From positions 1-43,418 of the IMG/VR virus record IMGVR_UViG_3300020601_000023: 43,418 nucleotides of DNA; one strand, given 5' to 3'. Source of the stretch: a virus. The notes beneath the pieces were generated by a model. The model saw nothing but the letters and a program-made list of their open reading frames with translations. It searched no databases and was not told the DNA's origin. This document shows, one piece after another, positions 1,435 through 43,418 of the stretch. Position 1 is the stretch's first letter, and every line of letters starts with the position of its first letter. The position numbers and the translations under genes were made by a program.

Positions 1435-2511
1435 CTACACCTCTAGTTCATTTCGGTGGGCTGTCAGGTCAGAGTAATACTTCTCTGCCACTGCTACCGA
1501 ATTTCTGAGGGTTTTCGCTGCATGGAATATGCCAGCGGTAGATGCCAATCTAGCCCCCAATATCTTTCTTAATCTATGACACGCCTTGTTCTCGGTTATG
1601 CCAAGCTCGCTCTTTAAAAATGAAACGAATCTACGATGGAGTCTCTCACCTCCGTGCACTACTCTGCCAGCTTGCTCTCGGCAGGTAAAGTGATCGTAGA
1701 CCTGTCGAGAAATACCTACTTTTTCGACATGATTCGTTTGTTTCAGTTTGCTACGCTTAGTAGCGAAAGGGAGCAGCAAGAAATGCTGCCCATTAAAAGT
1801 CGTAAAATTGGAGTACTCAATTTGATAAATTTCTGACTTCCTGAGACCGCAGCCAAAAGCCAGCATATAAATATCATAAAATATAGGGTGCTGCTCCCTA
1901 GCCCCATTAAAGAAATTAATTATGTGATCTACCTCGCTGTCATCAGTAGTAAAAGGCTGGGATACTGTTGTCTCAGGAATAAACGCCAAGAAATTCCCAA
2001 AATAACTAGTATCCCAGCCATTACGCTTGAACAACAACAGGTTTTTGCGACCAAAAATAGACCTTATCTGCCGAAGCTTGTGGGGCAGATTAAATATCGC
2101 TTCCCATCTCTCTGGGAGTGTCCGACCTAGCTCGTCAACTTCAGATAAAAATTTTATTGAGTCACTAAGATCCCAACCCTCCCTCGAAAATAGATCTTTT
2201 ATATGTGCTACATTCTTCTTTCTGGTAGGCTCGCTACCAGTGCCATGCTCAAGGTAAAGATCAAGTAAATCCTTAATTGTGCCTGTGCCGTCAATTTTTC
2301 GGCACACTTTTTCGATAGTGGTAGATATGTCATTTCCAGTTAATTCACTTAGTGCAATATAAAGTCTGTGAGAGTGGGAGGTATTTTTGTAAGTGAAATT
2401 TAAACCAACATAGCTGCCGTGATCAGTCAGGGTAACTGGTATTTGCACAGACCCATATCTGTATCCTGAAAGCTTTTTTTCTTCAACAACAGAAGCATGA
2501 GATTTATTCAC
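1435..2511 (-). CDS. int: Tyrosine recombinase (phage integrase)
   Basis: The C-terminal domain carries the tyrosine recombinase residues: Arg in AFGCGLRKSE (residue 258 of the longest reading), Lys in the FATKRSK region, HRLR (346-349), and a terminal KYY with Tyr379/380. The usual second His of LGH is Asn (LRNSVAVAEKYY). The frame is open to an ATG at 2613, but residues 9-25 of that longer version simply translate a tRNA-Cys 3' half. A GTG at 2511, three bases after GAGGGG, gives 358 aa and is preferred because it lies outside the attachment core and would stay intact after integration. The enzyme should integrate and, with an unidentified partner, excise the phage. The start choice is an inference. 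Confidence 0.88.
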   Translation of the reverse strand: MNKSHASVVEEKKLSGYRYGSVQIPVTLTDHGSYVGLNFTYKNTSHSHRLYIALSELTGNDISTTIEKVCRKIDGTGTIKDLLDLYLEHGTGSEPTRKKNVAHIKDLFSREGWDLSDSIKFLSEVDELGRTLPERWEAIFNLPHKLRQIRSIFGRKNLLLFKRNGWDTSYFGNFLAFIPETTVSQPFTTDDSEVDHIINFFNGAREQHPIFYDIYMLAFGCGLRKSEIYQIEYSNFTTFNGQHFLLLPFATKRSKLKQTNHVEKVGISRQVYDHFTCREQAGRVVHGGERLHRRFVSFLKSELGITENKACHRLRKILGARLASTAGIFHAAKTLRNSVAVAEKYYSDLTAHRNELEV

Positions 2512-2540
2512 AATCCCCTCAAATTCCCTTAGAGGGGAAT
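2512..2540 (-). promoter_or_regulatory. Two mutually exclusive hairpins between attP core and integrase GTG
   Basis: Just after the tRNA CCA, minus-strand ATTCCC-CTCTAA-GGGAAT forms a 6-bp stem. The alternative CCCCTC-TAAGGGAATTT-GAGGGG also forms a 6-bp stem and would hide the GAGGGG that can act as the ribosome binding site of the GTG start. The two cannot form together. They could terminate tRNA read-through, regulate integrase translation or serve as recombinase arm sites. The sequence shows only the complementarity. Confidence 0.4.
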
Positions 2541-2590
2541 GGAGGCGCGACTCAGAATCGAACTGAGGAATAGAGGATTTGCAGTCCTCG
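2540..2590 (-). other. attP: attP core: 3' half of tRNA-Cys(GCA)
   Basis: On the minus strand this reads as the 3' half of a tRNA. It has an anticodon arm GAGGA-CTGCAAA-TCCTC (2573-2589; U33, anticodon GCA), a 5-nt variable loop, a T arm CTCAG-TTCGATT-CTGAG (2551-2567), acceptor strand TCGCGCC (2544-2550), discriminator U and encoded CCA (2540-2543). No 5' acceptor strand or D arm precedes it, so it is not a functional tRNA gene. Phages that integrate into tRNA genes carry exactly such a 3' half as attP. Its place next to the integrase makes host tRNA-Cys the predicted attB. The core may extend a few bases past 2590. Confidence 0.88.
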
Positions 2591-2626
2591 GCGCTGGTTA
2601 GATGAAAATTCATGCCGTAATTAAGC

Positions 2627-2654
2627 TTTATGGGTCTTATTCAAGTGATGTCAA
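2627..2654 (-). promoter_or_regulatory. Candidate sigma70-type promoter upstream of attP/integrase
   Basis: On the minus strand TTGACA (2654-2649) is followed after 16 nt by CATAAA (2632-2627), a perfect -35 box and a 4/6 -10 box. It overlaps the end of the 82-aa gene and points at the integrase. Because it lies upstream of the attP core, integration would separate it from the integrase gene. Identified by motif only. Confidence 0.45.
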
Positions 2655-2656
2655 GA

Positions 2657-2905
2657 CTAAGCACCAATAGTAAGTAAATTTCTTTCAATGTCATAACTGC
2701 AGATAATTTCTCCACCCTCTCCGTACCAGATTAGTTCACTGTCGGAAAACTGGTCTCCATCACAATCTAGATATTTCTCACAGCAGGGTTTGATATCCCT
2801 CTTTACAGCTGCTTTAGTGATCTTGATTTGATCTGATGCGCACCCTTCTGGATACCATGTAAGTTCAAAGTTTCTAGCTTGGTTAAATGCTTTTTTAAGT
2901 TTCAT
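2657..2905 (-). CDS. Small hypothetical protein (82 aa)
   Basis: An 82-aa product whose ATG at 2905 follows AAGGAGCTAACCAC, the same type of leader seen before its two upstream neighbours. It contains four Cys (CASD, CCEKYLDC) and a C-terminal strand-rich stretch LIWYGEGGEIICSYDIERN. No known family is recognised. Cys spacing does not match a standard zinc ribbon. It is the last of four small genes behind the promoter/operator at about 3.69 kb and is likely an early accessory protein. Confidence 0.7.
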   Translation of the reverse strand: MKLKKAFNQARNFELTWYPEGCASDQIKITKAAVKRDIKPCCEKYLDCDGDQFSDSELIWYGEGGEIICSYDIERNLLTIGA

Positions 2906-2917
2906 GTGGTTAGCTCC

Positions 2918-3133
2918 TTATTTTTCTTCGGTGCATTTATCAATGTAGGGAACACAATAACCAAGAGTTTCATCATTAAGAATTATAAAGGTGTGCTTCT
3001 CAATGAATTTGGCAATGGCATCATCAAAAGTTGGTGCTTCAATTATTTTAAATGAGTCCCACCATTGTGTTCTAGCTCTGCTATGCTCTGGGTTACTAAT
3101 TCTCTGATATTGTATGCGGTATTTGTTGTTCAT
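2918..3133 (-). CDS. Small hypothetical protein (71 aa)
   Basis: A 71-aa protein starting MNNKYRIQYQRI, with a strong ribosome binding site AAGGAGACCAACCAC ahead of the ATG. The pattern (beta strand with YRIQYQRI, then WWDSFKIIEAPTFDDAIAKFIEKH) looks like a small alpha/beta protein in which an exposed strand is followed by an amphipathic helix, as in many phage early proteins that modify strand-sense input. No family or function is recognised. It is in a run of four short genes with near-identical leaders. Confidence 0.7.
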   Translation of the reverse strand: MNNKYRIQYQRISNPEHSRARTQWWDSFKIIEAPTFDDAIAKFIEKHTFIILNDETLGYCVPYIDKCTEEK

Positions 3134-3146
3134 GTGGTTGGTCTCC

Positions 3147-3419
3147 TTAGTTTAGTTCAAGTAAGTTGTTAATTTCGTTCTCAAAGGTAAAAGCTACCTG
3201 ATACAAAGCAAAGTTTTCAAGAATGCCTTCCTTAGTGGTAACGCATGGAGGTCTTCCTGTGACAACATCTTCGACTGATCTCAACTGATCGCAGATTTCC
3301 TTAATTGTTAAATCTTGGTCTTCATGCTCAAGCCATTGTTTAACTGATGCGTAGATTGCTTTGTGGCGAAGATTATTGTCCTCGTCATTAGGTAATTGAA
3401 ATTGTTGGTAAATGTTCAT
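3147..3419 (-). CDS. Small hypothetical protein (90 aa)
   Basis: The frame is open to 3521, but the start is placed at the ATG at 3419 (MNIYQQFQLPNDED). It is directly preceded by AAGGAGACCAACCG, the leader shared with the next gene, and the longer version would overlap the 78-aa gene by about 90 bp. The 90-aa protein is acidic and mostly helical (HKAIYASVKQWLEHE, TIKEICDQLRSVEDVV). The second helix pair resembles a helix-turn-helix weakly (LTIKEICDQLRSVEDVVTGR). No function can be assigned. Confidence 0.7.
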   Translation of the reverse strand: MNIYQQFQLPNDEDNNLRHKAIYASVKQWLEHEDQDLTIKEICDQLRSVEDVVTGRPPCVTTKEGILENFALYQVAFTFENEINNLLELN

Positions 3420-3432
3420 TCGGTTGGTCTCC

Positions 3433-3669
3433 TTATAAAGTTTTGTAATTTTCTTCGGCTTTAGCGTAGGCTTTAAGTGATGGGTAGTCGAATTGCCCAA
3501 CCTCATATCCCTCCCAAACATTTTGCAAATACCACCAACCTAATGCCCATTTGTTTTTAAGGGTGTAGATTAAGTCCCCAGACTTGTCATAACCATTAAT
3601 TTGGTAAGACCCTTTTTTGACCCAGTTGATGGCGTTGTTCCCTTGTGCGAATACTTGTTCGTTGTTCAT
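3433..3669 (-). CDS. Small hypothetical early protein (78 aa)
   Basis: A 78-aa protein beginning MNNEQVFAQGNNAINWVKKG, rich in aromatic residues (WALGWWYLQNVWEGYEVGQFDYPSLKAY). It is the first gene behind the promoter/operator element at 3677-3709. No Shine-Dalgarno is visible, and the ATG lies only about 8 nt from the predicted -10 box, so the transcript may be leaderless. No domain is recognised. Its first position in the left block suggests an early product. Confidence 0.68.
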   Translation of the reverse strand: MNNEQVFAQGNNAINWVKKGSYQINGYDKSGDLIYTLKNKWALGWWYLQNVWEGYEVGQFDYPSLKAYAKAEENYKTL

Positions 3670-3676
3670 GCATACA

Positions 3677-3709
3677 GATATAGTTTATGTGTACACAGAA
3701 AGCAAGTAC
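3677..3709 (-). promoter_or_regulatory. Promoter with palindromic operator, copy 1
   Basis: A 22-bp block (3688-3709) is repeated exactly at 36489-36510. On the minus strand it contains TTGCTT (3705-3700, -35-like) followed by the palindromic TGTGTACACA (3697-3688). Seventeen nt after TTGCTT comes TATATC (3682-3677, -10-like), and the ATG of the 78-aa gene is at 3669. The palindrome lies in the spacer, so a bound protein would block RNA polymerase. Promoter function is inferred; the repeat and palindrome are seen directly. Confidence 0.62.
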
Positions 3710-3742
3710 CAAATGAAAGAAAGCTACATTTGATTTAAAAAA

Positions 3743-3865
3743 TTATCTGGCTAAGGGCGTATTGCCCCTATTTCCAGCGGAGTTCTGCTTTACAACTTTT
3801 TTGTCAGCTGGAGCTTTTTTCTTAATTTCTTTGGCTGGTGCTTTCTTTTTTTCTACAGTTTTCAT
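3743..3865 (-). CDS. Small lysine-rich protein (40 aa)
   Basis: A 40-aa product beginning MKTVEKKKAPAKEIKKKAPADKK. About one third is Lys, with Ala/Pro spacers and a C-terminal NSAGNRGNTPLAR. The ATG at 3865 overlaps the TGA of the giant 2849-aa gene (ATGA), strong evidence for translation by coupling. The composition resembles the tails of histone H1-like or other nucleic-acid-binding proteins. It might travel with the ejected proteins or DNA. Function unproven. Confidence 0.7.
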   Translation of the reverse strand: MKTVEKKKAPAKEIKKKAPADKKVVKQNSAGNRGNTPLAR

Positions 3866-6800
3866 AATAGTGATTCCTTTTCTTTTCTAAGTTTTGTATT
3901 TCTCTGGTCTCTGAAGTACAGGCTTTTTTCGTCAGCCTTAACTTTTGGTTTATACTTAATTGGTTTGCTTGGCAGCGTGTTTTCTTTTGTCAAAGGTCTC
4001 TGCATTAAATCGTGTGCCGTTCGCATCTGCATGACCCTATATGAACTACTGCCTAAACTCCTGTCTGGCTGGATTGTTCTTTGTGGATTTGTTTTCTTCC
4101 CTTCCATTGCATTGAAATCTTCATCATAAGCAAACACATCTAAGCCTTCCTTAAAGAGATCAAAAGCTGACACATGACCCTCCATTGAGTGCACAGCAGT
4201 ACCCCGAAAGCTTACATCATAAGTCGGGTCAGGAGTTGCACCAATATCTTTTAAGTCTATCATTGGGTTTGCTATATCGAACTTAAGAATATGAATTATG
4301 TCTCCATGCCTATAGCCATCAGCGTCTCTATAGGAAGCAAGGCTTTGGTAGAGATCTTTCCAGTCTATAGCCTTATAGCCTTTAGGAGCATTCTTTTTTA
4401 TTTCACGCTTGTAGGCTGCTGGCATAACTCGACTTAATAATTTTTTTCTAAGCTCAAAAACCATTGTCGGAGTCACTGCCTTTAGGTCATCAAGGTTTCT
4501 AATTGGCAAGTCCAAGCTTTCCGCTGCTTGCTGTATATATTTTTCCACAATAGCCTTACCGCCCTGCACATGGAAAGAATCGTACTCAAGCTCATCCATC
4601 ATTATTCTGGCGTAAGTCCTGTTAGATGCCAGAGCCTCTTCGGACATCAGAACAGTCGCAGCGTAACCATCACTTCTTTCAATTCCCTTAAGCAACCCAG
4701 CAACAACTGAATCAATTTTGTCACCTGACTGCCCACAAGCCCAAGCAACCAGTCCTTTGTGTCCCCCAAACTTTGGGTGATCATGTCCACCCCTGCACTC
4801 AAACCTATTACCAGACCGAGCTGTATGCCATCCGACTTTCAAGCGATCACCGAGCACAGGAAAAACTTTTTTGGCTAGTAAGAAGTCTGGAATGTAATGC
4901 TTGTCTACATGATTGTCAGTGATCTCTACTTGAACTCGTGGAATGTAGCCGTGTACCGACTCTTGAACTCCACTAACTGATGGCATATAATTTAGATCTT
5001 TCTCTGTCAGCTTTACTTGAGGCTGTCTTCTCTTAAGATCAGAAACATTATACCTGTCGTTAATGTCCTTTACTTCCTGTGGGCTTAGAACTCTATTTAC
5101 CTTCATCTGTCCACTGATTAACCATTCCCCTACCATGTTAGGGTTAGTCTTATAGCGATAGTGTCCATTATATGGCACTTGGTCTATTATCTGGGCTGTC
5201 CTTGCTTTTATAGTGCCGTCCTTATTGTACTCTGCCCTTTCTTTGGCAACCTCAGTCCAGTCGAAATCATCAGCCAGCTCAACTTCAGCCCAGACCTCAT
5301 CAGGTCTCCTAGTGTCAGGTTTGACTAGAGTGTTCTTAGACTTTGACCCAATGTGTAAAGCCATGGGAAAGTCACTAGCGTGCCACCCTGCCCGATATGC
5401 TAAGTCACCGATCTTGGATTTAACTTTGCCAGTCTTCAGGTTTTGCTCACCCATTTCAGCCACCTGCCATTTGTTTAGTCTCACAGGTTGGTTTGCGTTC
5501 ACAAACAATGGGTAAAGTTTTTTATCTTTACCAACCTTGAAAAGCTTAAAAGCCTTTTTTGTTTTTAGTACTGGCTGAGGTTCAGTCGGCACTGGTATGG
5601 GCATATAAAATCTATTGTTTTTAGCATTGTATCGGACTTGAGCTCGTGCCATAGCTTCCCTTAATTTTCTTGGATCTAATCCAAGCTTAGCAGAGTGATC
5701 AACAGCATTAGCAGGGTCATTACTTGGAGTCCCAGTATCTATTAAAACATCAGCGACCTTGTCGTAAACCTTAATGCCTTTTGGGTTAATTTTAAAAAGC
5801 TTCCAAAAGGTTGGTGCACGATCTTTAGAAACTGGAGACATTTCTACCGCAGAATCCTTGCCATCGAAATCAAACTTAAGCTGCGGTAAAAATAATTGAT
5901 CGCCAATGAATTTCCCTGAAACTTCAACAGACCTATTTTTATCATTAACATCTTGAATTAGCTTAATGTCTTTTCGATTAAAAATAACAACATTTTCCGT
6001 ACCATCCTGCTTCATTCGAGCGCCATCAAATCCTAAGTCTTGCAAGAGTTTTAAATGAGGCTCAACATCGTACCATTCTCCTAGTTTCAGATCTTCAATC
6101 CCATAGTAATCTAGGTCAGAATTTTCTCTTAATTTTTTAATGTGCTTAGGGTTAGCATAATGAAAAACATTAGATGCATTAGTCGCTACCATGATTGGAT
6201 TTCCAGCATCACTGGCACTTCTCATCTGTGCTTCATAAAGAAGGGGATCTGCACCTCGATACATACTAAATTCCAGACTGAAATCTCTTTCAGAACTCAG
6301 CCAAATATAGTTATCCTTAAAAGTCCAATCCTTAAGCTTGCCCCTATTTCCTTCCCCTATAGTCCCACCATGATACCATGGCACAGGCAGATAACTTCCT
6401 CTTTCATTTTTTAAAGCAAAGTCAGGCTTGCCTTTACGAGTAATAAAATCCTGAAAATTTTGACTTTCAACAGTTTTAGATAGCCATTCAGATCGTGCAT
6501 CGATTTCTTTTATATCTGGCATAAATCGAATGTCTTTCTTAGTCGATGAATTAAAAGAATCAGAAGGTAGTTTTTGCCCGAACAAACCACTTACTTTTCC
6601 GAATGGTCTGTCTTTAGAAATGAGTTTTGTTTCCGCTGATTGATCTTTTATTAATTTTAATCTAGTGCTGTCAAAAATACTAATCTCATCACCCACTCTG
6701 TAACCATGCCAGCCTCTGGCTTTTATTTCTGGCTCAAACGCAAAAAACGCTTCTGGGTTTGCTGGAAAAAATTCCCCTTCAGGTAATTTCAGTGAGGCTA

Positions 6801-9800
6801 TATGTTCAGGGTTAGAAGCATCAAATATATACTTTGCATTACTCGCTAACACTAGAGGGACATGGTTTGGGTCTAACTTTGCCTGAAGCTCTCTAGCCTT
6901 TTTTCGGTCTGCCGTAACAGTGATGGTTTCATCTGCATTCCATCTGTGACTTTCACGATTATCCACTTTGTCGAACAATCGTTTTTGAATGTTGAGAGTT
7001 GCATCGTAGTTGGCATTTTTCGCAACCCCTATATCTCCAACATAATAAAGTTCTATCGGCTTAAAATTCCCATTAGGTTCTAGTGTTGCTAACGCTGGTG
7101 GATCTGCTCCAAACTCGTCTTCCAGTTTCATGAATCGCTGGAAGTTTGGCGCTTCGTACCCTAACTGCTTCCACTCCTTCCGAGCACCCAAAATAATCGA
7201 CTTGTCCAACCGCTGTGCCTGACTTAATTTTTGTCCATATTTCAAAGCTTTACGCTCATTGACAGAGGGCATAAAAAGTTTATCACCAAGAATCAAATTT
7301 TCTGCTAATTTCTTTCTTTTCTCTACTGCTTTTTTATACGCAGCAGCATCTTCTGCTGTAATTGTTGTTTTCTTTAAAAGCCTTATTTCATCAGCATTTA
7401 AAGTGATATCACTTTCATTTTGCGGTTTTTTTGGTTGGGAATTTTTTTCTTCGGGTGGCAGTTGTTTTGCCAGTCTTTCATTGTAGACATCATTAGCGGA
7501 AATACCTCGTTCTTCAGCTTCTGCTTTTATACTTTCAGCTATCTCGTCAGTTGTTCGTAATAATACTTTTTTGTTTCTACCTTTAGGTTGTCTCGGCATA
7601 TAAAGCTTGCGCCCACTCCCATACTCTTGAATTAAACTAGCAGTCTGCACATCTTCCTTACCAGTTTTAATATCAGGCATATACATAGGTAACTCTGGCT
7701 TAGTCTCAGGCAGCTCCATAAGCCAGACCTGTTGGGTCTGTTTATTGACCTCACCAAACTGATCTTGCGTTCCTACTGCTGCTGTACTGTCTCTATCCTG
7801 CAATGAAATTTCAGTTTTAATGGGTGGTCTTGTACCCATAATTTTTGCAAATCTCTTTGCAGCATCCACTACCATTTTGTCATAGAAGATCCTTCTGCCA
7901 GCGTGTGGCTTTTCTACATCATGCACAGCAATTTGTGCCCCTGCCTCTGCACCTCTTAGTTCTTTCACAGCATGATCCGCTGCATCCTTGCCAATCGTTC
8001 TAGCAAGCTCATCTGCATCTTTTATGGACTTGCGGACACTTCTTCCAGTTTTGCTTTCCGCATGGATTTTATACTGAGTACCAGAATCTGGCACTGCGAA
8101 ACCTAATTTATCTTTTTCTACTTTACCATCTAGCTTTGTGACATTCACAAAATTGAAATGCTCATCCAGCCTGTTCTGCTGTGCTGACCTTTCACCAGTT
8201 ACCCATGAAACATATCGCTTACCCTCATTCCATGCGTTGTTGATTGCCTCTGCAAGTCCACGAGAGTGCCAAGATTTTTTCATTGGGGCTGCTGACTGAA
8301 TAGAACCCCTCTCTCGATTCATTTCCCGAATTTCAATTCGAGCATCCTGCAAATTAGCATCAGCATTTTTTTCGTCATCTACCTTTTTAAGTTCAACTTC
8401 TAATCCAGTTTGCAGCGTTGCAAGTATATCATACCAAACTTTTTCTTGGTCTATACTCCCATACTTATATGGGTCTTCTGCCATCAAGTTCTGTCTATGC
8501 TTAAAATAGTTTTCTGTGTAACTATTTCTGTCACCGCTCCATGACCTTTCCCAATGAGCAAACTGCGTATCATTTAATTGACTTTCATAATTCAAATCGA
8601 AAAAGTCTACCTCGCCCTCGTTTGGATAGACTCCTTTAGCCTGTAGCTTTTCAGCCATATCTTTTTTTTGCTTGGTAATTATCCTGTCTGCAAAAAACTT
8701 TTTCGTCTCTTGTACAATACCAATAATATTATGATACACTTGACTATATCCATTTATCTCATGGTCTTTAGTCATCATTGTTAATGCGGTATCAACATCA
8801 TTCTCAATCTGCGTTGGATCGGTTTCGTAATCGGCTAGAGTCAGTAATTTGTTTTTGTATATACCTCTAAATAAATCTTCATCCACAAAGAATCGTTCTC
8901 GCACAGCGTTCCCTTTTCGCTGTTCATACTTACGCTCACCTTCATCAAAAATTTTCTGCAATTCTTTTTTTCTAGCAAACTTTGCTACCGCATCTGGGCT
9001 ATCGTCATAGCCTACTCCCTTTGCATACTGATGCCAGTCACTCTGGATTTCTTCTATATGGTAAGCAGTCTCTCCGTTGGGCAGGATTCTATCAGTCTTT
9101 CTTACATGAAACAATACCCTGTCATTTTCCCAATGCCCCCCACTCTGGTCTCCACCAATATATTTTTCAGACTCTGGTAAAATATAAAGTATTTCCTCAT
9201 AGTTCTCCCTGTATCCTCTCTCGACAGAGTCACCATAAATCGGGTCACCATCTTTTGAATTATCGACAGAAAGGTTTAAGATTTTCTGGTTAGCACCTAT
9301 TAAAAACTCCAGCGTGCTTTTGTCGATTATCTTTCCACGCTTTATTTCATTTAAGGTCTTCTGATCAATGCCAATGTCTTCAAGAAATTCCTTTGCTCCT
9401 TTCGACTTGTTTACCTCTGACATCAATTGTTCTGGTGTAAACTTATCTTGCGTTATATTAGGTAACACATCCTCCAGTAAATTGTTTCTAAGACCTCTAC
9501 TGTCAAAGTTATCCTTAGTGCTCATGCTAGGCATATACATTGTCTGAGGTATGGTTGTGCCATCAGCACCAGCACCAGAGAGCATGGGCATATAATTGTG
9601 CTTTGCATTATTATAATCGAAAGCAAACCCACCCTTATTCATATTGGCTGCACCAGCCATGCCCCCTAAGTCATAACTCTTGTAGGCATTCTTCAATTTA
9701 TTATCTGGGTTACTAAAAAATTCATTCAGCTTCGGGTCTTGCAGTTTCTGACCAGACTCCTTCATGCCGAGGGCTGCCGTGAACAGTTCATTCTCACCCA

Positions 9801-12411
9801 TCCCTAGAGGATTAATCCTACCCTCACCAGACTCCTGTAAAACACTATCTGCATGAGCAGCGAAGTCCTCGAAGAATTTAGCTTGGTTAGTTATGAAACC
9901 AGCTTGCTGTAGCAACTCTACATTGCTGGAAATAATGTCAGCATCATAACCTACTACCTTTAGATTCGGGAACACCCTTCTGCCTCTTCTTATACTTGGT
10001 TTCTTGGGGGAAATTTGCCAGCCTATAGGCGTAAAGCTTCGCTCATAAAATGGATTGTATTCTGTCTTGCCAATCCATTTTGCTGAGCGGTAACCGAATT
10101 TAATTTGCTGCCGTCTATCAATAGAAACTTGTAAGAAATCAATAAAGTCCATAGCAGCCTGTGCACTATTACCAGCAGTCCTAAACACAGACCTTACACC
10201 CTCACTTAACCTTTTCCCCTCTGCACCTTTCCCTATGCCTGTCAGGTCTTTGTCGAGACTCTGTGCATCTAATGAGGTTTGCTGCACCAGTTCGTCAAAC
10301 ATTGTCTGGTCTTTAATCATATAATGATTACCTATGGCTGTTGATACACCCTTGCCCCCAAACAGCTCAGTAAAACGATTATCAGAGGACTGCCCTGCCC
10401 TTGGTTCATGCTTTCTGCCTGTCTCAATATCGTCAGCTCGCTGGCGGTAGTGATCATTCCTTGTCTGCATATAGTTGTTAAACACATTAGCGACTCCATC
10501 ATTTTTCAGCATGGACTCACTAATTGGGCTGTCTATTAAGTTGCCAGAGTCTGGCTCGACAATGCCCATTTTAGACAAAGCCAGTCTGGCTGTATTCATA
10601 AGGCTGTGCCTAAATGATTTATTGTACTTTGCGAAAACATTAGGGGATTCCCTCATAAGCCCACTGAACTGTTCAGCTGCTATCTCCTCTGCCAGTAAGT
10701 AAGCATTTGTCCCCTCTACTGAGTTTGCGTAATCTTCGTCAGTCTTCCGTATCTTATCAGCATAATCTTTGGCAAACTGTTGTGCCTGTTCGTTTACTTT
10801 TATGCTGCCCGATATGCTGCCCTCACTGTCCCTAAAGAAAAATTCTTTACCATTAGGGTCATAAAAATTCTCAAGGATCTTTCGACGCATCAAGGGGTTT
10901 GACCCCATCATCTGTCTCATGATGTCATGCCCATGTTCATGCAGTACGATTTTACTGGCAGCATCAGTACCCTCTGCGACCTTAGCCTCGTTTATAACTA
11001 TGTTTTGCGATGGCTTATCATAATATGCACTGGGAGCATCTTTTGGGTCAACCCCTACAATTTTAGCAAACGAGTCCTGATCTAAAAGTTGCAACCTCAT
11101 GTTACCGAGTCCTGAGAACTCATCTAATGTGCTAAGAGCAACAAGTGTTTTTTTATCAACTTTCTCAAGTGCTGCTATTGTATCCTTATTCAGCATTTGC
11201 CCCTTGTTAGATAGATAGTTTTCTATGCCCTGATCACTGCGAGCCTCGTCTGTTTTACCGCTTCCCCGACTACCTGCCAGAGCACCAACAGGTGCACCCA
11301 ATACGAAACCACCACCAGCTGCCCGACCCATATCCTCTGCACTCTTTCCTTTTGCAAACTCAATCGCTGTCTGCATAGCAGCACTACTAACACCAGAGAC
11401 AAGTGCATCAAACACAACATCGTACATCCGAGTGCCTCTTAGTTTATAAGCCCTCGCTGCTAGTGCACGAGTCTGCTTCGATACATTTTCATTGGTGCTT
11501 AGTTTAAATAAAAATCTAGCGTGTGAGCTAGGACTGGATAGGACACTTGCAACCTCACTGACTTCTCTACTGACTGCCTTGGCAACCTTACTTAGTCCCT
11601 CTGCTACACCAACAGTCACCATGGTTGTGGCAATTCCCCCAAATGGATCTGAGCCCACTGCCATAACTGATCCAGCTTGCAGTCCCCTGTAAATATTCCC
11701 ACCTTTTGGGATCTTTTTCTCTAGCACTTTTGCAGGAAACCCAAGTGTAGCTTCTACCCCACCAGCTAATTTCTCTGCTCCCTTGGCTGTCACGCTGACA
11801 CCCTTGGCTGCACCCTTAATAGATTTCCTTATTCCCTGCTTTATGAATCTATCTCCATACAAGGATGGCACTAAATTTGTCGGGTCAGCAAAGTCAGCCA
11901 GTAAACTTGTATCATCCTTAAACTTTCCTGCTGCCTGTTGCAAATAGTGCTCCCTTGCAGCATTATAATAATTTAGCTCAAACTTGTGCCGTGCAAATGC
12001 CCTCTGGATCTCTTCCTCACCCTTGACCTCTGGGTCAAAGTAATCACGGATACTACTCTGCACGGATTTAATCATGTTCCATGTGTCCCTGAGTCCTAAC
12101 TCTGGTGCACTCGCTAAAGCTTTCCACGAGCCCTTAAAATCCTCCTTACCTTTGAAACCAAGCATACTGGCGATCATGGAGTCATTGTTCATGGCGTTAC
12201 CAATGTCCTCCTCAATCATTGTAGCTATGCCTTCAGGTAGCGCGGATGCATAACCCCAAATTGCTTCCCCCATACCCCTTTCCTTACGCTTTAAGTAATC
12301 TGCCCTGAACTGATCGTACTCAGTTTCCTCTGGCAAACTGGCTAGACCGCTAAAGTCTAGTTTTCGTCCGTAATTCTGCTCCTCATCAAACTCGCCAAAA
12401 TTAAGTCCCAT
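3862..12411 (-). CDS. Giant polyvalent virion protein (zincin + ART-like modules, 2849 aa)
   Basis: A 2849-aa protein, about 20% of the genome. Residues 1-400 are helical and include glycine-rich membrane-like stretches. A zincin metalloprotease motif HEHGH is at 491-495, with EEIAAE near 573 as possible third-ligand region. HIEEIQSDWHQ (about 1118) matches a domain common in phage polyvalent proteins. Two segments look like ADP-ribosyltransferase folds: about 1760-1925, and 2005-2150 (WYHGG, IWLSSERDFS, GFDGARM, VVIFNRKDIKLI). A further WHASDFPMALHIG / YNGHYRYKTNPN module is at 2339-2440 and a His/Cys-rich one near 2527-2565. Nine aromatic-hydrophobic-Met-Pro motifs (for example LYMP, LFMP) punctuate it. 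Such proteins are thought to be injected with phage DNA to disarm host defences. Start has GGGAGAT upstream. It follows two other presumed ejection proteins. Confidence 0.85.
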   Translation of the reverse strand: MGLNFGEFDEEQNYGRKLDFSGLASLPEETEYDQFRADYLKRKERGMGEAIWGYASALPEGIATMIEEDIGNAMNNDSMIASMLGFKGKEDFKGSWKALASAPELGLRDTWNMIKSVQSSIRDYFDPEVKGEEEIQRAFARHKFELNYYNAAREHYLQQAAGKFKDDTSLLADFADPTNLVPSLYGDRFIKQGIRKSIKGAAKGVSVTAKGAEKLAGGVEATLGFPAKVLEKKIPKGGNIYRGLQAGSVMAVGSDPFGGIATTMVTVGVAEGLSKVAKAVSREVSEVASVLSSPSSHARFLFKLSTNENVSKQTRALAARAYKLRGTRMYDVVFDALVSGVSSAAMQTAIEFAKGKSAEDMGRAAGGGFVLGAPVGALAGSRGSGKTDEARSDQGIENYLSNKGQMLNKDTIAALEKVDKKTLVALSTLDEFSGLGNMRLQLLDQDSFAKIVGVDPKDAPSAYYDKPSQNIVINEAKVAEGTDAASKIVLHEHGHDIMRQMMGSNPLMRRKILENFYDPNGKEFFFRDSEGSISGSIKVNEQAQQFAKDYADKIRKTDEDYANSVEGTNAYLLAEEIAAEQFSGLMRESPNVFAKYNKSFRHSLMNTARLALSKMGIVEPDSGNLIDSPISESMLKNDGVANVFNNYMQTRNDHYRQRADDIETGRKHEPRAGQSSDNRFTELFGGKGVSTAIGNHYMIKDQTMFDELVQQTSLDAQSLDKDLTGIGKGAEGKRLSEGVRSVFRTAGNSAQAAMDFIDFLQVSIDRRQQIKFGYRSAKWIGKTEYNPFYERSFTPIGWQISPKKPSIRRGRRVFPNLKVVGYDADIISSNVELLQQAGFITNQAKFFEDFAAHADSVLQESGEGRINPLGMGENELFTAALGMKESGQKLQDPKLNEFFSNPDNKLKNAYKSYDLGGMAGAANMNKGGFAFDYNNAKHNYMPMLSGAGADGTTIPQTMYMPSMSTKDNFDSRGLRNNLLEDVLPNITQDKFTPEQLMSEVNKSKGAKEFLEDIGIDQKTLNEIKRGKIIDKSTLEFLIGANQKILNLSVDNSKDGDPIYGDSVERGYRENYEEILYILPESEKYIGGDQSGGHWENDRVLFHVRKTDRILPNGETAYHIEEIQSDWHQYAKGVGYDDSPDAVAKFARKKELQKIFDEGERKYEQRKGNAVRERFFVDEDLFRGIYKNKLLTLADYETDPTQIENDVDTALTMMTKDHEINGYSQVYHNIIGIVQETKKFFADRIITKQKKDMAEKLQAKGVYPNEGEVDFFDLNYESQLNDTQFAHWERSWSGDRNSYTENYFKHRQNLMAEDPYKYGSIDQEKVWYDILATLQTGLEVELKKVDDEKNADANLQDARIEIREMNRERGSIQSAAPMKKSWHSRGLAEAINNAWNEGKRYVSWVTGERSAQQNRLDEHFNFVNVTKLDGKVEKDKLGFAVPDSGTQYKIHAESKTGRSVRKSIKDADELARTIGKDAADHAVKELRGAEAGAQIAVHDVEKPHAGRRIFYDKMVVDAAKRFAKIMGTRPPIKTEISLQDRDSTAAVGTQDQFGEVNKQTQQVWLMELPETKPELPMYMPDIKTGKEDVQTASLIQEYGSGRKLYMPRQPKGRNKKVLLRTTDEIAESIKAEAEERGISANDVYNERLAKQLPPEEKNSQPKKPQNESDITLNADEIRLLKKTTITAEDAAAYKKAVEKRKKLAENLILGDKLFMPSVNERKALKYGQKLSQAQRLDKSIILGARKEWKQLGYEAPNFQRFMKLEDEFGADPPALATLEPNGNFKPIELYYVGDIGVAKNANYDATLNIQKRLFDKVDNRESHRWNADETITVTADRKKARELQAKLDPNHVPLVLASNAKYIFDASNPEHIASLKLPEGEFFPANPEAFFAFEPEIKARGWHGYRVGDEISIFDSTRLKLIKDQSAETKLISKDRPFGKVSGLFGQKLPSDSFNSSTKKDIRFMPDIKEIDARSEWLSKTVESQNFQDFITRKGKPDFALKNERGSYLPVPWYHGGTIGEGNRGKLKDWTFKDNYIWLSSERDFSLEFSMYRGADPLLYEAQMRSASDAGNPIMVATNASNVFHYANPKHIKKLRENSDLDYYGIEDLKLGEWYDVEPHLKLLQDLGFDGARMKQDGTENVVIFNRKDIKLIQDVNDKNRSVEVSGKFIGDQLFLPQLKFDFDGKDSAVEMSPVSKDRAPTFWKLFKINPKGIKVYDKVADVLIDTGTPSNDPANAVDHSAKLGLDPRKLREAMARAQVRYNAKNNRFYMPIPVPTEPQPVLKTKKAFKLFKVGKDKKLYPLFVNANQPVRLNKWQVAEMGEQNLKTGKVKSKIGDLAYRAGWHASDFPMALHIGSKSKNTLVKPDTRRPDEVWAEVELADDFDWTEVAKERAEYNKDGTIKARTAQIIDQVPYNGHYRYKTNPNMVGEWLISGQMKVNRVLSPQEVKDINDRYNVSDLKRRQPQVKLTEKDLNYMPSVSGVQESVHGYIPRVQVEITDNHVDKHYIPDFLLAKKVFPVLGDRLKVGWHTARSGNRFECRGGHDHPKFGGHKGLVAWACGQSGDKIDSVVAGLLKGIERSDGYAATVLMSEEALASNRTYARIMMDELEYDSFHVQGGKAIVEKYIQQAAESLDLPIRNLDDLKAVTPTMVFELRKKLLSRVMPAAYKREIKKNAPKGYKAIDWKDLYQSLASYRDADGYRHGDIIHILKFDIANPMIDLKDIGATPDPTYDVSFRGTAVHSMEGHVSAFDLFKEGLDVFAYDEDFNAMEGKKTNPQRTIQPDRSLGSSSYRVMQMRTAHDLMQRPLTKENTLPSKPIKYKPKVKADEKSLYFRDQRNTKLRKEKESLL

Positions 12412-12413
12412 AA

Positions 12414-14780
12414 CTATCTCCCGAAATAACTAGACCCAATGCCCTTATACTGCCCACCCTCAAACCTTGGCTTAGACTTTTTCAAGTTGCCCAGATACTG
12501 GTCTCTCATCTGCTTAACCAGTTTTCTTTCATCTTCTGTTTTAGCATTAGCAAGCATTTCATCATAGGTCTCTTTTGTTACCTGTTCCTCAGATTCCGCT
12601 AGTGAAATAAGATCGTAAGCAACCGAGCCCATTGCAAAACCAACACCCCCAGTCAAAGCCCCACCGATTGCTGTTGCGATTCCTTTTTTCAGTGTACTCT
12701 TAAATCCTTGTTCCCCTGCCCACCTTGCTACTTTTCTCTTTACTTCCGAATTAAGTTTTGACCTTACTCTTGACCTAAAAGCCTTTTCATTTCCTCGGTA
12801 CTTATTTGCGTCAATGTTGTAGTTCTTGGCAACATTCTTAACATCGTCCAAGCTACCAGACTCTACCGCAGTTCTCATCTGTGTAATCTTAGTGGCTGCC
12901 TTTGGAAAATTTTTGTCAAAAGATTGCTGGGCTGTTTTGCCAGCTGACATTTTATTGTAGGTTGCCTTGCTACCAGCCAGCCCAGAGGTAACACCAGAGG
13001 CAGATGCAACCATTGAGCCACCATCATTAAGATTACTTAAATTTTTAGGATCTACAGTATAGGCTTTTTGCTTGGGTATATTTACAGGTGTCGATGCAGC
13101 AATAGGCTGGTTGCCATTTTGCTTAAGATCATTGAACTGCCTTTCCGCTTCGTCCATTGTCATCTTAAGGTTTATCTCGTCTCCAGTGCTCGGATCAAAG
13201 CCAGCCCCATTCCTTACTATTTTCTCAATGGCTGCCCGACTTTTTCCTTGCACCAGTCCGTTTATAGCTGAGTTGACATTGGCAGAAGTAACCCCTGCCA
13301 TTTTCTGCTCTTCTGTCTTAAACCCAGTAGGCTTATACATATCAAGATCAGAAAACTCATGTATTTCATTTGTGGTCAGCCCACCATAGGTAGCACGGAC
13401 TTCCTCATAGACCTGTGGAATTATTTCATCTGTTAACTCCCTACTTCTAAGATCTAATTTTGCTGCTATATCTTTAAACATTAAGAGGTCAGCAGCATTG
13501 AGAGCTCCACCCCCAAACACTGCATCGTCTCCGATTTTAAACTTCAATCCTGTTTCTGGGTTAATGGCATTTTTATAACCATTCTCCCACATCTCTTTGG
13601 TGACTTCTACATTCTCGCCAAAGGCTTTATCAAAAAATCTTTTAAACTGGTCACTGTATCGAGCACTGCCTTTTACTCGATCTACATCTTGATTACTTAA
13701 CACCCCAGCCCCCTGTGCTGTTTTTGCTAATTTAATTAATGCTACTGATGCAGCTACAGGGTTTTTAACATTGTAGGCAGTAATGTTTCCGTCCTGATCA
13801 AACTCAACTCCTTGAAGAGACTCATCCAGCATCTGCTTAAAATTGCCCATGTCACCAACTTGCGCCTTCATGGTCTCTATAAAGCTACCAAAGCCAGACT
13901 TAGCTACAGCATTATCAATAATCTTTCGAACACCTCCCTCTGGTACGATAAGTTTTTCTGCTCGTGCTCGTGCTGCTGCTAATTGCTCCCTTGGAAGTCT
14001 GGGGTTTTCAGCGGTGAATTTTGACCAGCTTTCTTCAAAGTCTGTACGGCTCTTAAAGTTCACACCATTTAATATTTCCCCAGTACCGCCCTCATCTTTT
14101 TTCTTAAATGAGTTAACTATAGAGGTAAGCATTGCAGGACTATATGCACCCAGCCCCATTGACTTATTTATACTCTGGACTGCTTGTAGGTCAGTAGGGT
14201 TAAACTCTTCTCCATTCTTTAAGAAACCCTGAGCAGGGTCTAAGCTATCTAAACGCTTCTTCCCATTCTCATCAGGCTCATGAAGGAATTGCAGGTATTT
14301 ATTTTGACTTTCTTGCAGTTCATTTCTTTGCTCGATCTCACTTATCAGCAGAGAGTTTTTCTTCTGTTCCTGACTTAGATTTCCCATAGCAAGCTGATGC
14401 TTCTGTTGAGCCATTTCCAGCTTCATCTCGTCCTGCACTTGAGCTCGTATATTATCGATGCCAATTTCTTTGTACCAAGACTTGATCTCTTTATTTAGAG
14501 TGCCTTTTTCTAGCATACCATTCACTTGCTCAGGAGTGTATCCAAACTTAAACTGAAGTTCCTTTTGTCCCTGCTTAGTTTTCAGGTGTGTCTCTAGGGT
14601 GCGCTCCAACTTTTTATTTTCAAAGTAAGTACTACCAACATTGCCAATTACGCTTGATAGAGCTTTCCCTATGTTCTGCCCTGTCTGGGCATACATATTG
14701 CCTATTGTTTCCCCTGCCCTTGCTATTGAAGAGTAGTCTGCCTGTTGTACATTTATGTCAGAAAAGTAAGGTGAGTTCAT
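12414..14780 (-). CDS. Presumed internal virion / DNA ejection protein (788 aa)
   Basis: A 788-aa, largely alpha-helical, Gln/Lys/Asn-rich protein (for example QKKNSLLISEIEQRNELQESQNK near 140-165). Near residues 690-725 a glycine-rich hydrophobic stretch (GIATAIGGALTGGVGFAMGSVAYDLISLA) could insert into a membrane. Placement between a 1056-aa and a 2849-aa protein mirrors the T7 gp14-gp15-gp16 and P22 ejection-protein clusters of podoviruses, which form a channel through the cell envelope. The 3' end is 2 bp from the giant gene; the 5' end touches the upstream gene's stop. No enzymatic motif is seen. The role is inferred from order, size and composition. Confidence 0.65.
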   Translation of the reverse strand: MNSPYFSDINVQQADYSSIARAGETIGNMYAQTGQNIGKALSSVIGNVGSTYFENKKLERTLETHLKTKQGQKELQFKFGYTPEQVNGMLEKGTLNKEIKSWYKEIGIDNIRAQVQDEMKLEMAQQKHQLAMGNLSQEQKKNSLLISEIEQRNELQESQNKYLQFLHEPDENGKKRLDSLDPAQGFLKNGEEFNPTDLQAVQSINKSMGLGAYSPAMLTSIVNSFKKKDEGGTGEILNGVNFKSRTDFEESWSKFTAENPRLPREQLAAARARAEKLIVPEGGVRKIIDNAVAKSGFGSFIETMKAQVGDMGNFKQMLDESLQGVEFDQDGNITAYNVKNPVAASVALIKLAKTAQGAGVLSNQDVDRVKGSARYSDQFKRFFDKAFGENVEVTKEMWENGYKNAINPETGLKFKIGDDAVFGGGALNAADLLMFKDIAAKLDLRSRELTDEIIPQVYEEVRATYGGLTTNEIHEFSDLDMYKPTGFKTEEQKMAGVTSANVNSAINGLVQGKSRAAIEKIVRNGAGFDPSTGDEINLKMTMDEAERQFNDLKQNGNQPIAASTPVNIPKQKAYTVDPKNLSNLNDGGSMVASASGVTSGLAGSKATYNKMSAGKTAQQSFDKNFPKAATKITQMRTAVESGSLDDVKNVAKNYNIDANKYRGNEKAFRSRVRSKLNSEVKRKVARWAGEQGFKSTLKKGIATAIGGALTGGVGFAMGSVAYDLISLAESEEQVTKETYDEMLANAKTEDERKLVKQMRDQYLGNLKKSKPRFEGGQYKGIGSSYFGR

Positions 14781-17700
14781 TAGGAATCCTTTTTAATTTT
14801 TGTCAGCATCCATGACTTAATAATTTTCTTCAACCATGGCTTGTCCTTCACCCACTCGGCAAACTTTTCACCATGCCTCATGTAAAGCTTTCGAAACCAA
14901 GATGGTGAGTCCAGCATCATCCATGTGCGGAACTGTATCCAACGAAGATCAAACATACCAAACACTTCCCTAGCAACCCAGCACGCATATGCCATTCCAG
15001 CACCTGTAGCTACACCACCAAGAATGCTACCCCACATGGAAGACTTACCAGCTGACGCAGTTGCCTGAGCACTTGCCATAGCAGCATTATACGAGTTTAT
15101 TCCTGCTGCCTGATTAGCTATAAACTCTGCACCCTGCGCTGGGTTATACATCATCGGAGTCTGAACATTCTGTGCTGCATTTCCGTAAAGGTTTCCAGCC
15201 CCAACAACACCAGCACCCGAAGGTCTTCCTGTGATTGCTTGCATTGGGTCTGCTGATGTTGCTTGCTCCAGTCCCACTCGTTGAGCTGCTGATGCCCGAT
15301 CCATTTGCAGACCGCTCTGCTCAAATGCTTGATTGATTTGACCGACTTGTATGCCTCGGTCAATATCTTTCTCCGTAGCACCAAGCAGCATTTGTTGCCT
15401 CGCCAATTCATTCGATTGGTTAGCTGCCTGAGATGCCTGATCCATTTGAGTTAAGGCAAGCTGGGACTGTTGGTTCTGTGCTGATGCTGCACCCTGTCGT
15501 GCACCTAGATTTAAGTCAGCTGCCTGATTAGACATCTGGGCTTGCATCGAGCTATTGATATCCATGCCCCTAAGCTGTGCCTCCTGCCCTGAAACTCCTT
15601 GTGCGAAGGCTTGTCTTTCCCTGAGTCTCTGGTTCGCAAACATTTCATTGTTTCGTAATTCATCTAGGACTCCAGCGGTGTCACGAGTCCTGCCTCGTGC
15701 GGTACTAGCAGCCCTTGCTTGCTGCTGTGCTGCCCTTAGTTCTCTTTCGGTCAGGTCACCTCCTGCTGCAAGCTCACTTGCTGCCTGTTCATTCAAGCCA
15801 GACCTGAGACCACTAAGGTTACCGACTTCCATGGCATCAACATCACGCCCTGCCATGCCAGCCTGAGCCATGCCTACACCCTGCTGATCTGTTAGCATTG
15901 CTGGCTGTGTTGATTCTTGTGGTGCTGCTTGTGGTGCTGCTTGTGGTGCTGCTTGTGCAGCTCCCATCTGTTGCAGCTCGGCTTGACCCCCTCCTACTTG
16001 CTCATTAATGCTTGCTGTGTTTCCCTTGCCCTGACCAGACAAGTCTCCACCAGTCTGATTTATATTCTGTAAATTTCCCTTACCATTGCCAGTCAGATCA
16101 CCTCCTGCCTGATTAATGCTCTGGGTATTTCCCTTACCTTTACCAGACAGGTCTCCACCTGTCTCATTAATGCTTGCTGAATTTCCCTTACCCTTACCAG
16201 ATAGATCTCCACCTGTCTCATTAATACTTTGAGTGTTTCCTTTACCTTTGCCAGATAGATCACCGCCAGTCTGATTTATATTCTGTAAATTTCCCTTACC
16301 ATTACCAGACAGGTCTCCACCTGTCTCATTAATGCCCTGAGTGTTTTCACCGCCATAATTATTCAGGTCTGGTTTAAGTGCTACTTGTTCCTCAAGTTTG
16401 CCTTCAAGGGACGATGCCCTCTCAGTAACACCAGTCTGGTTCATGCTTTTAGAGTCATCAAACTTTTCATTGTACGCAACCCTGCGCCCCACTGACTGAG
16501 CTTGCTCAGCTATTTCCTGACCAGTTAAATCACCACTTGTCGGATTAGGGTTTTGACCCTTACCTCCTGAGCCTCCTGAGCCTCCTGCGCCTCCAAAGCT
16601 TCCTGCGCCTCCTAGGACTGCACCTATCGCTCCAGCTCCCACTGCACCCATTGCTCCAGCTCCTGAACTCTCACCCTGACCAGTTAAGTCTCCTGCCTGT
16701 GGGTTTCGGTTATCACCTTTCTGTTGGCTCAATGACGAAGGCTGCTGATCCTGTTGCCCAGTTTGCCCTTTACCCTGACCAGTTAAGTCTCCTGCCTGTG
16801 GGTTCTGACCCTCGCCTTTTTGCTGTCTAAGCGACGAAGGCTGCTGATCCTGTTGCTGTTGCTGTTGCTGCTGACCTTGCTGAGCATTCTGCCTGTTTCC
16901 ATAAACGCTAGATATTTGCTGACCGCTTCCAAATGATTGAGCCAGATTACTAAGCCTATTGCCTTGAGAATCTAACTTTTGTGAGGGAATGGCAGACTGA
17001 TCATTTAACTTGGTAACTTTATCAAGTGCACCCTGAATATCTCCCTGTTTGCGGTACTCTTCTGTAAACTTATTTCCGTATTCCTCTATTAACTGAAGCT
17101 CGCCTTGGACTCTTGTGTCATTTGTCGTTGTCTGTAGGTCATTGGCAAGCTTACTTAACCCCTGAAAGTTTCCATCCTCATCAAAGCCAGCCCTACGCTT
17201 TACAGTATTTCCGTCTTTATCTTTAAAATCAAAAGTTTCTGTGCCAGCATACACATCGACTAGACCGCCACCAGACCTAGTAGTCTGTCCTGCCTTTGAT
17301 GGATCTGTTATAATATTTCCACCAACATCTTTCCTATAGATTGGAGTTTTTTCTATAGCCTCACCTGTAGGGCTAAATGAAACAGCATCAAGGTACTTTG
17401 CATTCTGTGCATTTTTAACACCCTCTTCTCCTAGAACATCTCCAAATGAACCAAGTGCAGAATTTCTTAGTTGTTGATATTTTGCTGTTTTATTACTGGG
17501 GCTACCGAGTTTTCCGTTGCCAGTTAAGTCTCCACCAGTAGGATTTACTGTTTGTCCCTTTTCAGTTTCAAAATCAAAAGAATTAGATTTTACAACATTT
17601 CCTGTCTTTTTGTCGATAAGCTCTAAGGTTGAAGTATACCTAAATCCGCTGTCACCTTTTTTGACATTACGCTGTTTTATTTCATAAGCCTCATTGCCAG

Positions 17701-17950
17701 TCTGTGCCTGTTCATATCCTTCTATTATTCTTCCTTCATCGTCATACGATGCTTCCTCGCCCAGCAGGGTATCCATTGCGACTTCTTGGTTCAGTCGCGC
17801 GTATGCTTTCCTGCCGTATGACGGATCTGCTTCTGCTGCGTATAGGTCTGGTGCGAGCTCAATTTGTGCCTCCAATCCTTCACGCATTGCTTCCCCATAA
17901 TTAACTTTTTCTGGGGCTTGTTGTACTATTGTTGTGTCACTTCCGCACAT
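14780..17950 (-). CDS. Presumed internal virion protein with GDLSG repeats (1056 aa)
   Basis: A 1056-aa protein with AGGAGG eight bases before the ATG. The N-terminus (MCGSDTTIVQQAPEKVNYG) leads to a Gln/Gly/Asn-rich middle with poly-Gln, six perfect 18-residue tandem repeats around GGDLSGKGKGN, four scattered extra GDLTG copies and an AAPQ triplet. Residues about 700-900 are Gln/Ala-rich helical. The C-terminus has a glycine-rich hydrophobic helix (SILGGVATGAGMAYACWVAREVFG) followed by a Trp/Lys-rich tail (SPSWFRKLYMRHGEKFAEWV). This C-terminal pattern is common in marine phage virion proteins. It is probably ejected with DNA; the repeats are low-complexity and likely flexible. Confidence 0.68.
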   Translation of the reverse strand: MCGSDTTIVQQAPEKVNYGEAMREGLEAQIELAPDLYAAEADPSYGRKAYARLNQEVAMDTLLGEEASYDDEGRIIEGYEQAQTGNEAYEIKQRNVKKGDSGFRYTSTLELIDKKTGNVVKSNSFDFETEKGQTVNPTGGDLTGNGKLGSPSNKTAKYQQLRNSALGSFGDVLGEEGVKNAQNAKYLDAVSFSPTGEAIEKTPIYRKDVGGNIITDPSKAGQTTRSGGGLVDVYAGTETFDFKDKDGNTVKRRAGFDEDGNFQGLSKLANDLQTTTNDTRVQGELQLIEEYGNKFTEEYRKQGDIQGALDKVTKLNDQSAIPSQKLDSQGNRLSNLAQSFGSGQQISSVYGNRQNAQQGQQQQQQQQDQQPSSLRQQKGEGQNPQAGDLTGQGKGQTGQQDQQPSSLSQQKGDNRNPQAGDLTGQGESSGAGAMGAVGAGAIGAVLGGAGSFGGAGGSGGSGGKGQNPNPTSGDLTGQEIAEQAQSVGRRVAYNEKFDDSKSMNQTGVTERASSLEGKLEEQVALKPDLNNYGGENTQGINETGGDLSGNGKGNLQNINQTGGDLSGKGKGNTQSINETGGDLSGKGKGNSASINETGGDLSGKGKGNTQSINQAGGDLTGNGKGNLQNINQTGGDLSGQGKGNTASINEQVGGGQAELQQMGAAQAAPQAAPQAAPQESTQPAMLTDQQGVGMAQAGMAGRDVDAMEVGNLSGLRSGLNEQAASELAAGGDLTERELRAAQQQARAASTARGRTRDTAGVLDELRNNEMFANQRLRERQAFAQGVSGQEAQLRGMDINSSMQAQMSNQAADLNLGARQGAASAQNQQSQLALTQMDQASQAANQSNELARQQMLLGATEKDIDRGIQVGQINQAFEQSGLQMDRASAAQRVGLEQATSADPMQAITGRPSGAGVVGAGNLYGNAAQNVQTPMMYNPAQGAEFIANQAAGINSYNAAMASAQATASAGKSSMWGSILGGVATGAGMAYACWVAREVFGMFDLRWIQFRTWMMLDSPSWFRKLYMRHGEKFAEWVKDKPWLKKIIKSWMLTKIKKDS
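16010..16333. repeat. Six tandem 54-bp in-frame repeats
   Basis: Exactly six 54-bp units (324 bp) encode 18-residue repeats of the form IN(E/Q)TGGDLSG-x-GKGN-xxx in the 1056-aa virion protein. A seventh partial unit (INE) starts at 16009. Units differ mainly at synonymous or tolerated positions. Further single GDLTG copies upstream in the protein show an older expansion. Copy number may vary between phage variants. Confidence 0.9.
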
Positions 17951-42790: not shown

Positions 42791-43418
42791 TTAGTTTTGG
42801 TTGAAAAATCCTTCATCATGTCCCCACACTGATCCACAAATTGACCAGAAGTTGACTAGTGCTTCCTTGATATCTGCATCATTAGAGCAAAAGCAGAGCT
42901 GCTTCTTTCCGTCTGGCATCTGATAGCCAATCGCATCCAGCTCGCAGTGCTCCGCTGTTAACTGAGCTCGATTCATGTAAGAGCTTAGGTGATTTTCCTC
43001 TGCACTCTTAATCTTTTCCTCAATCTTGTAGGGATCTTTTAAGTTTCCTACTTTGACGGAATCTGGATCAAACTCTGGGATCAGTGACGCAATTTCCTGT
43101 GCTGACCTCGGTCTAGTTTCAATGTCAAAAATGACAGCATCGTCCGAGACATCTAAGCTCTCATTTAAGGCATTGAAACAGTGGGCTGTCATGTTGATAT
43201 CTGCGGTGAGATAATCTTCCTTTTCATCAGAAGAAAACTTCCAGAAATCTTTTCCAGACCTTCCCCTTTTGTTCAGACCCTTATACCCTAAGATCTTTGC
43301 CAGAGTCTCCAGCTTAATCAGGTATCCGTACTCAGATCCTCCATACATTTCATTTGTATCAACAAAGATCTTTGGTAGGTATTTTTTGGGTTGAAGGTAG
43401 ACTGGGACTTTCACCCCA
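42791..43418 (-). CDS. DnaQ-like 3'-5' exonuclease, C-terminal part (cut by contig end)
   Basis: This frame is open to the contig end and continues from the left-end segment 1-274, giving about 232 aa in total. The motif VIFDIETRPRSAQEIASLIPEFD is ExoI of the DEDD family, followed by HCELDAIGYQMPDGKKQLC. The protein stops at SVWGHDEGFFNQN, just where ExoII (usually H-N-x-x-x-F-D) would lie, so the C-terminal half of the fold is missing. It may be inactive or complemented. It lies ahead of SSB and after ERF across the junction. Confidence 0.78.
   Translation of the reverse strand, partial: GVKVPVYLQPKKYLPKIFVDTNEMYGGSEYGYLIKLETLAKILGYKGLNKRGRSGKDFWKFSSDEKEDYLTADINMTAHCFNALNESLDVSDDAVIFDIETRPRSAQEIASLIPEFDPDSVKVGNLKDPYKIEEKIKSAEENHLSSYMNRAQLTAEHCELDAIGYQMPDGKKQLCFCSNDADIKEALVNFWSICGSVWGHDEGFFNQN
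43216..43418. repeat. Right copy of terminal redundancy
   Basis: Same 203 bases as 1-203, seven substitutions and no gaps. Merging both gives a circle of 43215 bp. In the shared gene the only amino-acid change is Val/Leu in the segment GYKG(V/L)NKRGRSG. See the left copy for interpretation. Confidence 0.93.

Follow-up and report, generated by a model that had tools for sequence, protein, structure and literature searches.

Repeated [FY]MP motifs at the module boundaries of a giant phage polyvalent protein: candidate processing signals with protein-specific dialects

Results and discussion

A short motif recurs in a giant polyvalent protein

The window analyzed here is the whole stretch of 43,418 nucleotides that makes up IMG/VR virus record IMGVR_UViG_3300020601_000023. 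Its minus strand (3862-12411) carries a gene for a polyvalent protein of 2849 amino acids (aa). A place in the virion is suggested by the position of this gene beside two large structural-block genes. An earlier reading made from the sequence only had described one gene filling about a fifth of the genome, endowed with a HEHGH sequence and punctuated by nine aromatic-Met-Pro motifs. Indeed, the gene occupies 19.7% of the window and HEHGH is present (Table 1). Eight of the nine motifs are Met-Pro, whereas the ninth, LFLP at residues 2173-2176, is a Leu-Pro variant; the positions given were right to within two residues. The composition of the protein predicts 0.27 occurrences of [FYW]MP, and a count of eight was reached in none of 20,000 shuffles. 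No tripeptide of the protein was more enriched than YMP (1.8e-5 after correction for 8000 tripeptides), and in a motif-blind search for the best [FY]XX pattern MP won in this protein, which ranked first among 94 long open reading frames (ORFs). No other ORF of the window contained [FYW]MP. Since the proline codons vary among the sites, the repeat sits at the protein level. The observation that a motif is repeated in the giant protein is confirmed.

Relatives keep the backbone and the motif but exchange the cargo

A profile of the N-terminal region retrieved six relatives from IMG/VR (L151-L156), several of them on contigs whose size, about 43-44 kb, resembles that of the window, and with matches to other window genes as well. 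Identity to the window protein amounted to 32-44% over residues 1 to about 945. In all six, motif 1 read NYMP, NFMP or NFLP, and the homology ended no more than about 15 residues from it. The cargo that follows was unrelated to that of the window protein according to blastp, and [FY]MP recurred at two to three further sites in each of the five relatives with sequenced cargo (the L153 sequence ends soon after motif 1). The motif type was retained where the cargo was replaced. The sequence-only reading had made its proposal depend on conservation of the motif positions in relatives; this holds for motif 1, the alignable site, while the cargo sites recur without being alignable. Motif-core versus flank conservation between aligned relatives was uninformative, the cargo being mostly non-homologous. 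The motif was absent from other ORFs of at least 400 aa in the loci of five relatives, and single-sequence searches of public phages with the whole protein or the backbone returned one distant match or none.

The motif marks homology breakpoints and predicted linkers

A DNA scan for NPDIR[FY]MP yielded 15 viral loci encoding phage proteins, and most of the longer frames held two to five [FY]MP compared to 0.1-0.2 expected. In a scan of genome contigs for the same pattern, ten matches lay in short frames without recurrence and serve as chance controls. Among 14 proteins of the MP type, 35 of 51 motifs were located no more than 20 aa from the end of a blastp alignment, while random circular shifts gave 11.5 ± 3.0 (maximum 22 among 2000); the median distance from motif to breakpoint was 7 aa instead of the expected 82 aa. 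When the sites at ends of ADP-ribosyltransferase (ART) domains, the source of search bias, were removed, 23 of 39 motifs still lay near breakpoints versus 7.8 expected. A reciprocal scan for GQP[LIM]FMP found 16 loci, 14 of them with the matched site only; the two multi-motif proteins both carry D[IM]RFMP sites. In a further protein (L059, ORF 1628-7567, minus strand) the tag is four residues long, with FMPE occurring five times and FLPE once.

Structure prediction pointed in the same direction. An AlphaFold model of residues 1690-2200 showed ART-like folded regions at a predicted local distance difference test (pLDDT) score of about 80-93, and the motifs at 1713, 1963 and 2173 lay beside these folds in segments with pLDDT under 50. 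A second model, of lower quality, likewise placed motif 1 where pLDDT is under 50. In nearly every case the best Foldseek match of the 1690-2200 model was an ART/PARP fold, the anti-CRISPR protein 6kyf among them; none of these matches was individually significant. The ART-PolyVal Pfam family matched the window protein below threshold (19.8 bits, cut-off 31.2) and the relative L138 above it (49.8 bits). The earlier suggestion of two ART-like modules is thus supported by the model, by Foldseek matches that are each weak, and by a sub-threshold family match. The suggestion that the motifs stand mostly between domains is likewise borne out, by homology breakpoints and by predicted disordered linkers. 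Several disparate domains are combined in one polypeptide: ART folds, a zincin signature, a module matching phrog_30118 and a module with an EIQSDW signature that is common to the window protein and another giant phage protein. The N-terminal half of the phrog_30118 module (module F) matches a stand-alone 117-aa gene of Vibrio phage K412. Module F is also contained in gp38 (1203 aa) of Roseobacter phage CRP-212, a cultured phage; this gp38 has neither HExxH nor a repeated tag. A 2387-aa protein of Dolichospermum phage Dfl-JY45 (L177:2352-9515) has four YHGT sites, which probably represent four ART copies.

Other phages use other dialects of the tag

The sequence-only reading did not notice that [FY]MP is a single dialect of a tag used more widely. 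Scanning for the ART C-terminus FDPxNP[DN]I[RK][FY] revealed 120 loci in which the residues after [FY] vary by protein, SR being the commonest, followed by AR, SL, SV, SQ, LP, RD and others. Tags of other phages include FSR, FAR, FQL, YSP and F[KR]K. Across 89 non-redundant proteins, the protein's own two-letter tag followed [FY] outside ART contexts 90 times, compared to a permutation mean of 51.6 (20,000 permutations, maximum 85, none reaching 90). A protein's tag is thus repeated at junctions without mutual homology more often than by chance. The recurrence persisted when SR proteins were excluded (57 versus 29.5, p 5e-5), and the same dipeptide was not enriched after residues other than [FY] (648 versus 672). 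A de novo search recovered the tags SR, SP, QL, SV and ET; a scan for NPDIR[FY]QLA gave no matches. In a family with HEWWH or a related zincin, the backbone ends in NVAMF-SR, NVAMF-AR (L039) or TILF-RK (L093); in those same proteins the ART site changes in step (DIRF-SR, -AR, -KK). Because the homologous site differs in step with the protein's other tag, the tag is adapted to its protein rather than brought along by the module. As judged from these comparisons, the motif is a module-boundary signal with protein-specific dialects.

A candidate metallopeptidase in the backbone

The conserved backbone contains a putative zincin with invariant signature residues (Table 1). By hhalign, the zincin region of the window protein matched those of six other MP-type proteins with a probability of 91, including the LAEE/ELAAE stretch. 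In MP-type proteins with the 5' part available, the zincin lies in cis and upstream of every motif, and the window ORFs that were scanned matched no further peptidase family. Within a poorly resolved zincin tree, small clades mostly have one tag in common. A comparison of tag changes on the zincin and ART trees (18 on 49 rows versus 22 on 45) was poorly resolved and had no shuffle test; it is not used as evidence.

Feature map and genomic surroundings

The window begins and ends with an imperfect direct repeat (1-203 and 43216-43418, 196 of 203 bases identical), which suggests a near-complete genome with redundant ends, derived from a mixed population. Genes for an ERF-like annealing protein and a RusA-like resolvase are located at 271-1246; they are possible tools for module shuffling. 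A neighboring gene (14780-17950) encodes a 1056-aa protein in which a GDL[TS]G(x)GKG repeat occurs many times, as seen in the L001 copy; the protein has no Pfam or PHROG match.

Table 1 Features of the polyvalent protein gene, with window coordinates
Feature	Coordinates	Strand	Basis
Conserved N-terminal backbone, residues 1-939	9595..12411	-	homology in six relatives, ends at first motif
Zincin-like metallopeptidase region, approx. residues 404-627	10531..11202	-	signature and profile comparison
HEHGH, residues 491-495	10927..10941	-	HExxH invariant in seven aligned backbones
Glu576 in LLAEE, candidate third zinc ligand	10684..10686	-	invariant in seven aligned backbones
Motif 1, NYMP, YMP residues 940-942, backbone end	9586..9594	-	NYMP/NFMP/NFLP in relatives; model pLDDT about 24
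Motif 2, MYMP, YMP residues 959-961	9529..9537	-	motif scan
Cargo module A, residues 962-1576, EEIQSDW signature	7684..9528	-	also found in other giant phage proteins
Motif 3, MYMP, YMP residues 1577-1579	7675..7683	-	motif scan
Motif 4, LYMP, YMP residues 1604-1606	7594..7602	-	motif scan
Segment B, short, lysine-rich, residues 1607-1712	7276..7593	-	sequence
Motif 5, LFMP, FMP residues 1713-1715	7267..7275	-	low-confidence linker in model
Cargo module C, ART-like fold, residues 1716-1962	6526..7266	-	AlphaFold and Foldseek
Motif 6, DIRFMP, FMP residues 1963-1965	6517..6525	-	low-confidence linker in model
Cargo module D, ART fold with WYHGGT, residues 1966-2173	5893..6516	-	model; ART-PolyVal sub-threshold
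Motif 7 variant, LFLP, F residue 2174	5884..5892	-	low-confidence linker in model
Cargo module E, about 92 aa, residues 2177-2268	5608..5883	-	sequence
Motif 8, FYMP, YMP residues 2269-2271	5599..5607	-	motif scan
Cargo module F, phrog_30118, residues 2272-2474	4990..5598	-	PHROG match
Motif 9, NYMP, YMP residues 2475-2477	4981..4989	-	motif scan
C-terminal module G, residues 2478-2849	3865..4980	-	sequence

A candidate inter-module processing signal

We propose, with about even confidence, that the protein is a polyvalent effector polyprotein in which [FY]-[ML]-P would act as the inter-module processing signal, the zincin being the candidate enzyme. A conserved N-terminal backbone bearing the zincin would be followed by interchangeable cargo modules, and [FY]-[ML]-P would represent a short exposed linear signal that is read at every boundary by a cognate factor encoded by the element. 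This signal would most likely be a cleavage site, with the upstream zincin as candidate protease, and cutting during packaging or after injection would free the ARTs and other effectors separately. A protease is the most economical factor because the zincin lies in cis upstream of the motifs and the scanned window ORFs revealed no second peptidase family. In line with this reading, the N4 virion RNA polymerase, a zincin protein reportedly packaged uncut (PMC5512222), lacks such a repeat. The idea that the motifs could be cleavage or docking signals had been raised before; boundary position, predicted disordered linkers, persistence of the motif and the upstream zincin speak for it, while we infer that the protein is injected, that it is cleaved and which enzyme acts. 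More tentatively, the dialects (FMP, FSR, FAR, FQL, F[KR]K) may form a protein-specific cleavage code of self-processing effector polyproteins in tailed phages, which would coevolve with the cognate protease, so that incoming modules would have to gain the local tag to be released.

Several results weigh against processing by the zincin. The zincin call consists of a signature and a weak profile match; the Pfam family MPTase-PolyVal (PF18818) reached a best E of 0.11, in one relative only, and the backbone model (pLDDT 57) gave no meaningful Foldseek match. Among the ART-selected proteins, many of them truncated ORFs, the tag recurrence ratio was alike with and without HExxH/HExxxH (1.98 versus 1.86), and a dependence of tag recurrence on a zincin in cis was hence not supported by this comparison. 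L099, a protein whose 5' part is intact, lacks HExxH and carries two FSR tags, and the zincins of L007 and L039 are close while their tags differ (SR versus AR). Furthermore, motifs 1 and 2 are spaced by only 19 residues and motifs 3 and 4 by only 27, which makes more sites than are required for one predicted cut per module.

The same boundary signal could be a docking tag: a short peptide in each module would bind to some phage protein (portal, ejection protein, scaffold or chaperone), so that the modules are packaged or translocated in order while the protein stays whole. A short linear motif in predicted disordered linkers suits this function, protein-specific dialects would suit coevolution with such a partner no less than with a protease, and the N4 virion RNA polymerase is reportedly packaged unprocessed (PMC5512222). 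Against docking stands the intact zincin in cis upstream of all motifs in MP proteins with a 5' part, and the partner is a hypothetical one; we regard docking as possible but rather doubtful.

We think it improbable that module shuffling left the motif behind as a passive relic, with linkers that served as recombination joints or were copied along with the modules. Homology does break at the motifs, the modules form a mosaic, ERF and RusA homologues are encoded in the phage genome, and local linker copying occurs (e.g., MPAPTDLQ twice in L139). However, the shared bases number only about 8-9 and the proline codons vary, alternative residues (F/Y, M/L) preserve the pattern, the modules preceding the tag are unrelated, and passive carry-over does not explain why the tag at a homologous site changes in step with the protein. 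It is very unlikely that the motif is nothing more than a terminal strand or cap belonging to certain domains, above all the recurrent ART end NPDIR[FY]: most sites of the window protein follow non-ART modules, the modelled motifs lie outside folds, and the residues after [FY] agree within a protein and vary between proteins. Internal translation starts producing the cargo modules separately are scarcely credible despite a core Met at eight sites, given the lack of a Shine-Dalgarno-like sequence in the few upstream bases read, the Leu codon TTA at one site, and the SR, QL and KK tags of other proteins, which hold no start codon.

Relation to known systems

In viral polyproteins, one short lineage-specific consensus marks successive domain junctions and the cognate protease resides in the same chain; the window case differs in that it concerns a tailed-phage protein and cleavage is only predicted.

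Phage polyvalent proteins and their autoprocessing by zincins were proposed by Iyer et al. 2017 (PMC5512222). As described in the sections of that paper considered here, these proteins are likewise giant and multi-domain, with zincin and ART modules. Zincin self-processing was thus already proposed in 2017, without sites: those sections contain no inter-module tag or cut site, whereas the window protein has a boundary motif, with dialects elsewhere. Two proteins treated in the same sections can be compared. P1 DdrB, reported as processed before packaging, resembles the window protein as a polyvalent protein with a HExxH zincin; it differs in lacking [FY]MP and in that its own zincin is C-terminal, and those sections give no cut site for it. 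The N4 virion RNA polymerase, reported as packaged uncut, is also giant and has a zincin sequence, HELVH, at residue 2228; it showed no repeated [FY]XX tag. The literature searched, which covered open-licence papers, contained no description of an inter-module tag. New here are the end of the backbone at motif 1, the position of the motifs at breakpoints and in linkers of the model, and the protein-specific dialects.

Conclusions

The findings address the open question of whether giant injected phage proteins are cut, and by what route so many activities reach the host through a tail. Because the tag is legible in the sequence, it supplies each protein of this kind with candidate sites and predicts module boundaries without homology. 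It could also aid the annotation of effector modules, including possible anti-defence ARTs.

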